A stretch of 49,533 bases of DNA from Bacilli bacterium (GTDB lineage Bacteria > Bacillota_I > Bacilli_A > RF39 > UBA660), in the NCBI GenBank assembly GCA_017887425.1, contig JAGHHZ010000024.1, positions 1-49,533 on the forward strand, read 5' to 3'. A model generated the notes under the pieces. The model made no database searches and was not told the origin of the DNA. It saw only the letters and a list, made by a program, of their open reading frames with translations. Position 1 is the stretch's first letter. Each line of letters opens with the position of its first letter. The position numbers and the translations under genes were made by a program. Below are positions 207-8,502 of this stretch, in pieces.

Positions 207-211
207 AGGAG
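207..211 (+). promoter_or_regulatory. Ribosome binding site that decides the start at 221
   Basis: AGGAG at 207-211 lies nine bases before ATG 221. The ATG at 246 has only A-rich sequence before it and no ribosome binding site. Translation should therefore begin at 221, in a frame that the G tract disconnects from the long reading frame. Confidence 0.75.
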
Positions 212-220
212 TTAGATAGT

Positions 221-271
221 ATGAATAAAATAGCAAATAGCAAAAATGGGGGGGGGGCATTTACAAAATAA
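221..271 (+). other. Truncated leader ORF produced in the current G10 state
   Basis: Reading from ATG 221 gives a 16-codon peptide (MNKIANSKNGGGAFTK) that ends at TAA 269-271, just after the G tract. With nine (or twelve) G the same start would read through into the prepilin-like frame. This short ORF is therefore what the 'off' state of a phase-variable gene should look like. A sequencing error in the homopolymer would give the same picture. Confidence 0.65.
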
Positions 272-1907
272 TGCTTTTACCTTAACGGAATTAATTGGTG
301 TAGTAATTATATTAGGTATAATATCTTTACTAGCATTCCCACCAATATTAAATGCGATAAGAAGTACCAAAGGTAAAATAAGTGATGCTAGTAAAGAAAT
401 ACTTTATAACGCAGTAGGATTATATGTTAGTGACAATATCAATAATTATCCCAAATATAATGGAAATAAATATTGTGTAACTGTAAATGAATTAGTTAAA
501 GGAGAATACTTACCAACTAAAGTATATGATTCAGTAACAGGAAATGAAATACCACAAGATAGTAAAATTGAAATAAATATAGAGAATGATATTTATAGTT
601 ACAATTTAAATAATGAATGTAAAGAATATTATAAATATGGTCCATTAATAAAAGTTTTATTAGGTCAATATAATGAATCAAATACAACTGGATTAGTAAA
701 AGACACAACAAATGAAAATATATATTATTATAAAGGAACTAATGAAGAAGTAAGTAATAACTTTTTATGGTATGGAGGACATCAATGGCGAGTAATAGAA
801 TTTGATACAAAGGAAAATACATTAACACTTATAACTCAACAACCATTAACTGCAATTCAACCCGCAAGTAGTGTATGGAAAAATGAAGAGACATATAATT
901 CAAGTTATATCAACACATGGTTAAATGAATATTTTTGGAACAGTTTAGATAGTGAAATTCAAAAAAATATATTAGATAGTACATTTAATGTAGGAATATA
1001 CACAAATGTTAACGAAATAACAACGATTAAAAAAGTGGGTTTATTAAATGAAAATCAATATAAAAGAGCTGGCGGAATAAATTCTTTTTTAAATATTGAT
1101 GAATATTTTTGGTTGGGAAATAGATATGATAATAGTCAAACTAGAATTGTTAGTGGATTGGATTATGTAAATGTTCCTACTACATATAATTATGGTGTTC
1201 GAGCAATAATAAAAATAAATAATATTATTATAACTGAAGGAGAAGGAACTTTAACTTCAAGTTATAAAAGTTCAATTAGAGTAACAAATATTGATGAAAT
1301 ACAAGTTGGGGAATATATAAATGTTCCGTATAATGGTAATGATAATGCATGTGGAAGTGATAATATGTGTTCGTTTAGAGTAGTAAGTAAAGATAATGAC
1401 AGTGTAAAAGTAATATTAAATGGATTATTACCAAATACATCTTCATATGGTAGTACATCTACTATTACTACAAATCACACAATATATACAGTTCTTAATA
1501 ATTTTGCTAGTAATATAAGTAATACGTATCGTTATGGTCAAAATAAAACGTTTTATATAGGTGATTATCCATCAAGTTCAAATTATGTATCCATTAAAGA
1601 TGAAACATTATTAACAAGTGTTGGACTACCATCAGTTGGAGAAATATTTTGCAGTAATGATATTGATATGAATTTAATCAAAAATTTTGTAGATAAGAAT
1701 ACTATAGAAAACTCAAATCTATATGGAAATTTTTGGACAATGAATAGAACAAATTCAACTAGTGTTCGCGTTATTGGATCGTCTGGAGGTTTAGGAGCTG
1801 AAACTATTACAAATAATGGTTATGTTCGACCTGTAATATTTTTAAAAAACAATTTAGAATTTACAGGTGGAGATGGAACAGCTCAAAATCCTTATACGTT
1901 AGATTAA
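246..1907 (+). CDS. Prepilin-like surface protein with two tandem C-terminal domains, reading frame under a poly-G tract
   Basis: Counting from ATG 246 (553 residues), the N-terminus has a type IV prepilin signature: A10 then FTLTEL, with Glu15 at the +5 position relative to Phe11, followed by a hydrophobic helix to about residue 38. Such proteins are cut by a prepilin peptidase and anchored or assembled through this helix. The remainder is a tandem of related domains, roughly residues 130-330 and 340-553. Each has a W/F-R-V strand near its start and a V-R-x-(V/A)-I segment near its end; the second finishes with GGDGTAQNPYTL. The real start is probably ATG 221, which has the promoter and SD, but the ten-G run puts that start one base out of frame. 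The protein is then made only after slippage or from a weak start at 246. No pilus assembly genes are nearby. The prepilin-type head is secure; the function of the C-terminal domains is unknown to me. Confidence 0.75.
   Translation: MGGGHLQNNAFTLTELIGVVIILGIISLLAFPPILNAIRSTKGKISDASKEILYNAVGLYVSDNINNYPKYNGNKYCVTVNELVKGEYLPTKVYDSVTGNEIPQDSKIEINIENDIYSYNLNNECKEYYKYGPLIKVLLGQYNESNTTGLVKDTTNENIYYYKGTNEEVSNNFLWYGGHQWRVIEFDTKENTLTLITQQPLTAIQPASSVWKNEETYNSSYINTWLNEYFWNSLDSEIQKNILDSTFNVGIYTNVNEITTIKKVGLLNENQYKRAGGINSFLNIDEYFWLGNRYDNSQTRIVSGLDYVNVPTTYNYGVRAIIKINNIIITEGEGTLTSSYKSSIRVTNIDEIQVGEYINVPYNGNDNACGSDNMCSFRVVSKDNDSVKVILNGLLPNTSSYGSTSTITTNHTIYTVLNNFASNISNTYRYGQNKTFYIGDYPSSSNYVSIKDETLLTSVGLPSVGEIFCSNDIDMNLIKNFVDKNTIENSNLYGNFWTMNRTNSTSVRVIGSSGGLGAETITNNGYVRPVIFLKNNLEFTGGDGTAQNPYTLD
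248..257 (+). repeat. Poly-G tract (10 G), candidate slipped-strand phase switch
   Basis: Ten consecutive G lie between the start codon at 221 and the prepilin-like frame, in a region otherwise almost free of G and C. I saw no other G run of comparable length in the window. The gene is in frame with 221 when the count is a multiple of three (9 or 12) and out of frame with 10. Confidence 0.75.
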
Positions 1908-5922: not shown

Positions 5923-5927
5923 GGTTG

Positions 5928-5936
5928 TGATAAAAT
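5928..5936 (+). promoter_or_regulatory. Extended -10 promoter of the radical SAM gene, giving an almost leaderless mRNA
   Basis: TGATAAAAT at 5928-5936 is an extended -10 element. A start seven bases later falls at about 5943, two bases before ATG 5945, leaving no room for a ribosome binding site. Confidence 0.5.
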
Positions 5937-5944
5937 AAATAGGT

Positions 5945-6739
5945 ATGAAAAAGTTTAAAAAAATCTATGTTGAAATAACTAATATTTGTAATTTAAATTG
6001 TTCATTTTGTTCGAAAGATAACAAAGAAAAACGAGAAATGACTTTAAAAGAATTTGAACATATTTTAAAACAAATAAATAATTATACAGATTATTTATAT
6101 TTACACGTTAAAGGAGAACCATTATTACATTCTAAACTAAAAGAAATAATTGATTTATGTAAAAAATATCATAAACAAATTAATATAACAACTAATGGAA
6201 CTTTATTAAAACAAAAATTAAATATTTTAGAAGATGTTCGTCAAATCAACATTTCTTTACACAGTTTAATTGATAAAAATAAATTAAATGATATTTTAAA
6301 ATGTGGTGATTATTTAAGTGAAAAAGGTGTGCAAGTCGTTTATCGTTTTTGGACTGATAATAATAGCGATTTAATTAAAAATATTTTAGATTATTATAAT
6401 TATAAAGATAAGTTATCTAATAATATGAAATTAAAAGATAATCTTTATTTAAATAAATCTTTTGAATTTATTTGGCCCGATTTAGATAACTTTTTTATAA
6501 CAAACCAAGGTTTTTGTAAAGGACTTGATACCCACATTGGAATTTTAGTTGATGGAACAGTTATTCCATGTTGTTTAGACAGTAGTGGTATCATAAATTT
6601 AGGTAATATTTATAAAGAAAATTTAAATGATATTTTAAATAAAGAAAGAACTAAACAAATTATCGATGGTTTTAAAAATAATAAATTAGTCGAAAAATTA
6701 TGTCAAAAATGTGATTTTAGAAAGAAGGTGTTTAAATGA
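5945..6739 (+). CDS. Radical SAM protein with C-terminal SPASM-type cysteines
   Basis: Iron-sulfur enzyme that cleaves S-adenosylmethionine to start radical chemistry; the substrate is unknown. CNLNCSFC at about residues 15-22 is the CxxxCxxC cluster motif, followed by a short TIM-barrel core with GEP (around 57) and ITTNGTLL. The C-terminal third has a cysteine set (CKGLD, PCCLDS, CQKCDF) typical of SPASM auxiliary-cluster domains. At 264 residues it is short. No peptide substrate gene or recognition domain is visible nearby. ATG 5945 is fixed by the closeness of the cluster motif, yet no spaced SD precedes it. The stop overlaps the uvrC start by four bases, so the two are translationally coupled. 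Confidence 0.85.
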   Translation: MKKFKKIYVEITNICNLNCSFCSKDNKEKREMTLKEFEHILKQINNYTDYLYLHVKGEPLLHSKLKEIIDLCKKYHKQINITTNGTLLKQKLNILEDVRQINISLHSLIDKNKLNDILKCGDYLSEKGVQVVYRFWTDNNSDLIKNILDYYNYKDKLSNNMKLKDNLYLNKSFEFIWPDLDNFFITNQGFCKGLDTHIGILVDGTVIPCCLDSSGIINLGNIYKENLNDILNKERTKQIIDGFKNNKLVEKLCQKCDFRKKVFK

Positions 6740-8502
6740 TAAAGGAAAAGTTATCTTTAGTTCCTCAAAAACCAGGTTGTTATTTAATGAAAAACAAAGA
6801 TGGTAATATTATATATGTCGGAAAAGCTAAAAAATTAAAAAACCGTTTAAGTTCTTATTTTAGAGGAACACATTTTGGTAAAACAGCTAAATTAGTTAGT
6901 GAAATAGTTGATTTTGATTATATGGTTGTCAATACGGAAATGGAAGCATTGATTTTAGAAAACAATTTAATTAAACAATATGATCCTAAATATAATATTT
7001 TATTAAGAGATGACAAGAGTTATCCTTATATTGAGTTAACTAATGAGAGTGTTCCAAGATTAACAATCGTAAGAAGTATTAATCGTAAAAAAAATCTAAA
7101 TCATTTATATGGACCTTATCCTAATGTTACAGCAGCAAGAAATACGGTTAATTTATTAAATAGAATGTATCCTTTAAGAAAGTGTACAACTTATAATAAG
7201 AAACCTTGTCTTTATTATCACATTAATCAATGTTTGGGTTATTGTACTAATAATGTATCGCAAGAAAAAATTGAATCTATGCGCAATGATATTATAAGAT
7301 TTTTAAAAGGTGATCATAGTTTAATAACTGATAAAATAAAAAAAGAGATGATTGAAGAAAGTGAATTAATGCATTATGAAAAAGCGAAAGAATTAAAAGA
7401 ACTACTAGATTATATCGAAATAGTCTTAACTAAACAGCAAGTTGAAATGGGCGATATGGTTGATAGAGATGTTTTTGGATTCTATACTGATAAAGGATAT
7501 TTGTCGATTCAAGTTTTTTTCGTAAGAGGTTCAAAATTGATTGGTAAACATTCTAAAATATTTCCTTTAATCGATGATGTTGAAAATAGTCTTACTAGTT
7601 ACATAACTAAGTTTTATGATAAAGATATTATTAAACCTAAAGAAATATTAATTCCTAACAATTTAGATAATGAACTAATTAGTGAATATTTAAATATAAA
7701 AGTTTTAAGTCCAATTAAAGGTAATAAGAAAAAAATAGTCGATATGGCTTGCGATAATGCTAAGATATTGTTAAATGAAAAATTCGAATTAATTAAAAGG
7801 GATGAAGAAAAAACAACTTTAGCTAACGAAGAATTAAAAAATGTTTTAAAATTATCAAAATTAGATCGAATTGAAATATTTGATAATTCTAATCTTTTTG
7901 GCAATTTCAATGTTTCTGGAATGGTAGTTTATATTGATGGTAAAGAGGCTAAAAATGAATATCGTAAATTTAAAATAACCGTTGATAAAAATGATGATTA
8001 TGGTACGATGAGAGAAGTAATTTATCGCAGGTACTTTCGGGTTTTAAAAGATAATCTTCCACGACCAGATTTAATAATTGTCGATGGTGGAATAGGGCAG
8101 ATGCATGTGGCAAGAGAAGTGTTAAGTAGCTTAAATTTAGATATCATGGTAGTAGGGTTAAAAAAAGATGATAAGCATGCTACTAGTAAGTTATTGGCAT
8201 TTGATCCAATAGTTGAAATTGATGTTGATAAAAATAGTAATTTATTTCACTATCTAGAAAGAATGCAAGATGAAGTTCATAATTATACTATTAATTATCA
8301 CAAACAATTAAGAAGTAAAGGTAGTTTAGAAAGCGTATTAAGTAATATTTCTGGTATTGGAGAAAAAAGAAGAATTATGTTATTAAAAAAATATAAAAGT
8401 CTTAATAAATTAAAAGAATTAAGTCTAGAAGAATTAGAAAATATCTTACCACAAGAAGTAGCTAATAATTTATATCAATATTTACAAGAATTTGACAAAT
8501 GA
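6736..8502 (+). CDS. uvrC: UvrABC system protein C (excinuclease subunit)
   Basis: Nuclease of nucleotide excision repair that cuts on both sides of a lesion after UvrA/UvrB recognition. In order: GIY-YIG domain (GCYLMKNKDGNIIYVGKAKKL, residues 14-34), a cysteine-rich region near 150-172, UVR domain (about 200-235) that binds UvrB, RNase H-like C-terminal nuclease (with DRIEIFDNSN and IIVDGGIGQ), and a helix-hairpin-helix end (about 530-588). The length of 588 is normal. AAGAAGGTG precedes the ATG inside the radical SAM gene. It ends in TGA, which shows that TGA is not recoded. Confidence 0.97.
   Translation: MIKEKLSLVPQKPGCYLMKNKDGNIIYVGKAKKLKNRLSSYFRGTHFGKTAKLVSEIVDFDYMVVNTEMEALILENNLIKQYDPKYNILLRDDKSYPYIELTNESVPRLTIVRSINRKKNLNHLYGPYPNVTAARNTVNLLNRMYPLRKCTTYNKKPCLYYHINQCLGYCTNNVSQEKIESMRNDIIRFLKGDHSLITDKIKKEMIEESELMHYEKAKELKELLDYIEIVLTKQQVEMGDMVDRDVFGFYTDKGYLSIQVFFVRGSKLIGKHSKIFPLIDDVENSLTSYITKFYDKDIIKPKEILIPNNLDNELISEYLNIKVLSPIKGNKKKIVDMACDNAKILLNEKFELIKRDEEKTTLANEELKNVLKLSKLDRIEIFDNSNLFGNFNVSGMVVYIDGKEAKNEYRKFKITVDKNDDYGTMREVIYRRYFRVLKDNLPRPDLIIVDGGIGQMHVAREVLSSLNLDIMVVGLKKDDKHATSKLLAFDPIVEIDVDKNSNLFHYLERMQDEVHNYTINYHKQLRSKGSLESVLSNISGIGEKRRIMLLKKYKSLNKLKELSLEELENILPQEVANNLYQYLQEFDK

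Follow-up and report, generated by a model that had tools for sequence, protein, structure and literature searches.

Does the run of ten G between a start codon and a long prepilin-like frame, in this AT-rich member of the Bacilli (RF39; UBA660), act as an on/off switch for the gene? In the window (the whole stretch of 49,533 nucleotides that was analysed), we identified on the forward strand a sigma70-type promoter at 163-192 (TTGACA at 163-168, an 18-nt spacer and TATAAT at 187-192) and a Shine-Dalgarno sequence, AGGAG, at 207-211, 9 nt before the ATG at 221. The closest homologous loci have similar promoters at an equal distance, and AGGAG or a similar motif was found ahead of the start in most homologues. 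The frame opened by ATG 221 (221-271) runs for 16 codons and ends with TAA at 269-271; it reads ATG AAT AAA ATA GCA AAT AGC AAA AAT GGG GGG GGG GCA TTT ACA AAA TAA, with MNKIANSKN-GGG-AFTK as the product of the ten-G (OFF) form. The tract itself (GGGGGGGGGG, 248-257), the proposed switch, begins after 27 nt, a distance shared by most loci of the genus, and is directly followed by the body of the prepilin-like gene (258-1907; 549 codons after the tract, stop TAA at 1905-1907). The sequence-only reading had pointed from promoter and Shine-Dalgarno to ATG 221 and a frame ending at 271, had called the gene off, and had stated that the long frame is entered from ATG 221 with nine or twelve G. All of this was read directly in the sequence, where G10 places ATG 221 out of frame with the long ORF, and 6 G would bring the two into frame as well as 9 or 12. 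The ORF at 246-1907 encodes 553 aa, and the ON form at nine G would have 561 aa. A probable intrinsic terminator, recognised by inspection (AGAAAC-GAAA-GTTTCT followed by a T run, 1909-1931), closes the gene and is identical in its orthologue (L085). The Rfam scan of the window and the homologous loci returned tRNAs only; thus, no known RNA element accounts for the leader.

We examined the kind of protein that this frame encodes. The N-terminus has the form of a class III signal followed by a pilin helix, NNA|FTLTELIGVVIILGIISLLAF, that is, a short leader, the (G/A)|FxxxE motif and a hydrophobic helix. The single-protein HMM matches to TIGR02532 and to Pfam N_methyl both scored 15.4 bits, below the cut-offs, while a family profile matched type IV pilins of the PDB at 7.6e-10 and aligned query residue 11 (F) with mature residue 1. 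This alignment places the predicted prepilin peptidase site A|F (NNA|FTLTELIGVV) at 273-278, with Ala at position -1 instead of the usual Gly. A prepilin peptidase (Peptidase_A24) was present in all 18 genomes of the genus, and a PilB-type ATPase was detected in this genome (T2SSE, 3.9e-129, contig C31). With leader, cleavage site, peptidase and ATPase all recovered, we classify the window protein as type IV prepilin-like, a filament being predicted at most. The tract would lie in the portion of the leader that the peptidase removes, so that ON forms of differing length should yield the same mature protein. Further downstream, a stretch at 855-1004 resembles DUF6273 (Pfam PF19789, 8.6e-08), a domain described as C-type-lectin-like in target proteins of diversity-generating retroelements (DGRs) (PMC10743442, PMC11792537). 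The predicted structure of the window protein had low confidence (mean pLDDT of 59.9), and Foldseek gave no significant match for it; thus, the lectin-like fold of the C-terminal part is suggested by DUF6273 sequence similarity only.

The tract is the sole run of at least six G in the 49.5 kb of the window. The trinucleotide statistics of the window predict about 0.0007 runs of at least ten G per Mb, which agrees with the initial view that a G10 is very unlikely here by chance. The whole genome (1.24 Mb) contains three runs of at least nine G, each of them exactly G10, and all three occupy the equivalent leader position of a prepilin-like gene: the window gene (contig C36) and the genes on contigs C26 and C29, the latter two being the additional tracts at surface-gene starts that the genome scan had been proposed to find. 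The three genes share a common layout, comprising a Shine-Dalgarno sequence, the ATG, 27 nt ending in (A/T)NSKN, G10, CATTTA and AATAATGC(T/C)TTTACCTTA. A protein search turned up 16 matches in this genome that have a prepilin-like head, three of which bear tracts. Across the genus, 21 of the 24 listed runs of at least eight G fall in this leader. Pattern scans outside the lineage matched Cohnella, Lactobacillus, Edwardsiella and others, in unrelated contexts.

A slipped-strand switch predicts that tract length varies among relatives, and it does: homologous genes in 18 genomes of the genus carry 7 to 13 G in the equivalent leader, with intact frames downstream. Nine G in every relative, which would have reduced the tract to an assembly error, was therefore not what we found. 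Among the 28 loci with a called start, one of which belongs to another genus, 7 were ON and 21 OFF, and the three phases were represented by 7, 12 and 9 loci, about one third each and about random. Indels beside the tract alter the length that gives the ON state (9/12 or 8/11/14 G), with the distance to the start kept and the frame after the tract open. The tract lengths are single consensus values from draft metagenome bins, some of them at 6-8x coverage. The draft state of the bins would suit a homopolymer error in assembly or sequencing, or a decaying pseudogene, and one contig (G002:C39; L100, positions 1-60) does show an assembly artefact at its end, where an apparent Illumina adapter runs straight into the G run. 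Against these readings, about 30 loci in several assemblies have lengths of 7-13 confined to one position of the leader, and sequencing error cannot explain why runs of varying length keep to a single site in a single gene family. The frames also stay intact after the tract, for up to 1077 codons, and the selection estimate given below (dN/dS 0.21) does not fit decay; we regard error or decay as the least probable of the alternatives, and as highly improbable in itself.

Some copies of the leader have unusual surroundings. In G004:C38 (L166, 1544-1598), a G10 is followed by a 38-nt insertion, a second run of seven G and then a prepilin of the kind seen elsewhere, which gives the impression that the tract region was duplicated or invaded. 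Genome G011 carries four leader copies (L093, L094, L095 and L097) with G7-G9 after LANSTH or a similar peptide and with short conserved tails, without a fused gene; in L093 and L094 the downstream prepilin has TGA in place of the usual GGA (the G of GFTLIE).

The closest comparison is given by the tract gene on C26 and its counterpart G010:C70, which past the promoter differ over about 700 aligned bases at one point only, G10 (OFF) in the former and G9 (ON) in the latter. C70 is a short, low-coverage contig that could be a strain of the window species binned elsewhere; whichever origin it has, the tract changed first. The window gene and its syntenic orthologue, G014:C7, both have G10, the length found at the window locus itself in the two genomes where an orthologue was found, and they differ by dN 0.015 and dS 0.069 (dN/dS 0.21). 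Purifying selection on a protein that is out of frame in both copies means that it must be in use for at least part of the time. Genome G014 also holds a paralogue that is 94% like the window gene over its first 515 bases and has G13, a second paralogue (80%) with G9, and, on G014:C2, the 67-nt head (97% identical) joined to a different prepilin class. In terms of contingency loci, the window tract has the length expected (at least nine G), and lies where a change in length would alter the frame; the tract of its C26 sister is polymorphic between close copies.

The same data bear on programmed slippage, in which slippage of RNA polymerase or of the ribosome on the G run would yield a constant share of product from an out-of-frame gene, with no genetic switching. 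G runs can promote slippage. The three copies in this genome share G10 with the syntenic orthologue, a uniformity that a fixed arrangement could explain as well, and the protein is under selection although it is out of frame. A programmed site should, however, keep one phase, and the homologues do not: their phases are near uniform and their lengths span 7 to 13, the near-identical pair differs by a single G with one copy in frame, and promoter spacers, in which the frame is irrelevant, hold many of the runs seen in other genera of the family. We therefore consider programmed slippage unlikely as the function of the tract, though slippage could give leaky expression in OFF cells.

Translation might also start at the internal ATG 246, which at G10 (or G13) is in frame with the long ORF; the gene would then be on, and the tract would have no switching role. 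No Shine-Dalgarno sequence precedes this ATG, and in about a third of the homologues the triplet before the tract is ACT, CCT, CTT, TTC or ATA. Where such an ATG exists, it is out of frame in the homologues that are in frame from the upstream ATG, and the conserved parts are the promoter, the Shine-Dalgarno sequence and ATG 221. As ATG 246 is not conserved, a start there, named in the sequence-only reading as an outcome that would overturn the switch, is very unlikely, more so than programmed slippage.

With a probability of about 0.88, we thus interpret the G10 run as a putative contingency locus, a slipped-strand switch within the leader that would be cleaved from a type IV prepilin-like surface protein. 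The phase variation first suggested for this gene gained support from the tract lengths of the homologues, from the pair that differs by one G and from the selection on an OFF gene. Replication slippage to 9 or 12 G would allow ribosomes from ATG 221 to read MNKIANSKN-GGG(G)-HLQNNA|FTLTE... and to make the protein, while at 10, 11 or 13 G they would stop within about 17 codons. The window gene would be one of a set of independently switched genes that share one leader (three tract genes in this genome and up to six found in a relative), and through independent switching the cells would show varying combinations of pilin-like adhesins. We infer the switching in vivo, its effect on expression, the surface location of the protein and its adhesive role.

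A second layer of variation was found on some of these genes. Contig C34 of this genome carries a complete DGR (5023-8884 in L118, G000:C34:6000-20000), composed of a prepilin-like target, a MutS_I-domain gene, bAvd and a reverse transcriptase, with variable repeats at 5926-6072 and 6601-6753 and a template repeat at 6874-6959 of the same stretch. The tract gene on C26 has a variable repeat at its 3' end that mismatches the template on C27 at 18 positions, all of them template adenines (chance about 8e-11), and one of the changes turns AGA into the stop TGA; on this pattern, the gene qualifies as a DGR target. The end of C26 (L007, 7749-8066) overlaps C27 (L192, 1-318) over 318 bases with 19 differences, again all at template adenines. 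The simplest reading is that one locus was assembled twice from a population carrying different alleles, and C26 and C27 are probably a single locus split by retroelement-made diversity. Contigs of many tract genes break before the 3' end, which bounds the variable-repeat tests; among other tract genes, 19 of 21 differences lie at adenines in G002:C19 (G11), and the pattern is weaker in G005:C49 (G10; 15 of 21). We detected no variable repeat in the window gene, against which the C34 template gave a chance-level match only, and a BLAST comparison between the window and the C27 locus was without a match. The GC content of the last 150 nt is 0.33 in the window gene vs 0.47 in the C26 gene. Some tract genes, the C26 copy of this genome among them, are also DGR targets, combining on/off switching and tip hypermutation on one gene. 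Finally, in G016:C88 (L157, about 423-431) the leading gene of a DGR-like operon has a G9 within its start and is followed by Avd-like and reverse transcriptase genes; there, the mutagenesis machinery itself may be phase-variable.

Long G runs extend beyond the genus. Runs of at least nine G were present in 73 of 144 genomes of the family, with up to 36 in one genome (G061, G174, G172, G171, G110 and G099 are among those with 20-36 each). In a sample of 47 runs, taken from 40 hand-picked stretches of which several come from the same genomes and are thus not independent, 15 lie in promoter spacers (TTGACA/TATAAT within one mismatch), compared with 0.1% of random positions. The next gene encodes a strongly hydrophobic N-terminus in 31 of 36 cases, vs 18 of 66 other ORFs there. 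In G172, G171 and G097, the runs lie between -35 and -10, several of them before predicted exported proteins, and in G062, from another genus, the coding form of the tract is found in a prepilin. In G114, G187 and G018, the run occurs in hairpin-like contexts followed by T runs. In particular, genus g95 (G114 and G242; L108-L110 and L112-L114) has the leader core with G7-G9 in a non-coding position, where the run is part of a strong terminator-like hairpin (z -3.2 to -4.7); prepilin genes and, in one case, a DGR operon lie downstream. This hairpin is possibly another placement of the switch, a candidate attenuator dependent on tract length; a reading of the leader core as a mobile element was set aside, and the non-coding g95 cores were read as this other placement. 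Attenuator-like arrangements, G10-G11 followed by TAT..ACC..CTCTTTTT, were also observed in L222 and L233 (G187) and L242 (G018), some of them before predicted exported proteins. As the runs of the family sit at several control points, the window gene is one instance of a family-wide switch, and the single-gene view of the sequence-only reading widens to many genes across the family, linked in part to DGRs. We favour, with fair but clearly lesser confidence than for the window gene, a joint reading in two parts. Exported and pilin-like proteins of the family would be under a large G-run phasome, with as many as 36 tracts in genomes of about 1.2-1.4 Mb, and it would depend on the genus whether the tracts lie in coding leaders, promoter spacers or attenuator-like hairpins. 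In some species, moreover, a single gene would open with an on/off G tract and close with a lectin-like tip mutated by a retroelement.

The best-known cases of poly-G phase variation come from a small number of Gram-negative pathogens, and mycoplasmas use other repeats. In Neisseria, at least nine G are taken as indicative of phase variability, and pilC is a genic poly-G contingency locus with G9-20 (PMC5953494). Like the poly-G/C loci of Neisseria and Campylobacter (PMC5953494), the window tract concerns a surface-related gene, its length shifts the frame, and several loci per genome would switch independently; unlike those loci, it is found in an AT-rich, uncultured relative of the Bacilli and sits in the leader to be cleaved from the prepilin itself, and this leader is common to different prepilin bodies. 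The homopolymers of meningococcal porA, opc and fetA are transcriptionally switched (PMC4235727), and other genera of the family likewise have G9-G14 between -35 and -10 before exported proteins; in contrast to porA, opc and fetA, the family shows coding, promoter and attenuator-like placements in related genera, with the window gene representing the coding form. The window gene shares its DUF6273 domain family with known DGR targets (tentaclins and Faecalibacterium prophage targets), and the C26 and C34 genes and G002:C19 have, as such targets do, variable repeats changed at template adenines. The cited DUF6273 targets are phage proteins, whereas the stem here is a prepilin, in some cases with a poly-G switch, and the window gene departs from them in its lack of a detected variable repeat. 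The modular type IV pilin PilB of Streptococcus sanguinis (PMC8179133) similarly joins a pilin stem to a large extra domain; its extra domain is a different one, and the abstract mentions no phase switch for PilB. Open-licence papers yielded no account of a phase-variable prepilin from this lineage, in line with the sequence-only reading. The mechanism is already known. What appears undescribed in those papers is its occurrence in this lineage, its position in a cleavable prepilin leader that different prepilins have in common, and its combination with retroelement mutagenesis.

For practice, the finding warns that automatic gene calls on draft genomes will cut such genes short or misplace their starts, and it makes tract lengths in existing metagenome reads a cheap and direct way to study surface variation in such bacteria. 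In this uncultured lineage, poly-G switching of prepilins would be one of the main ways of varying the surface, and in some genes it would come on top of retroelement hypermutation. If the joint reading is true, the presence of an adhesin and its specificity would be randomised separately.
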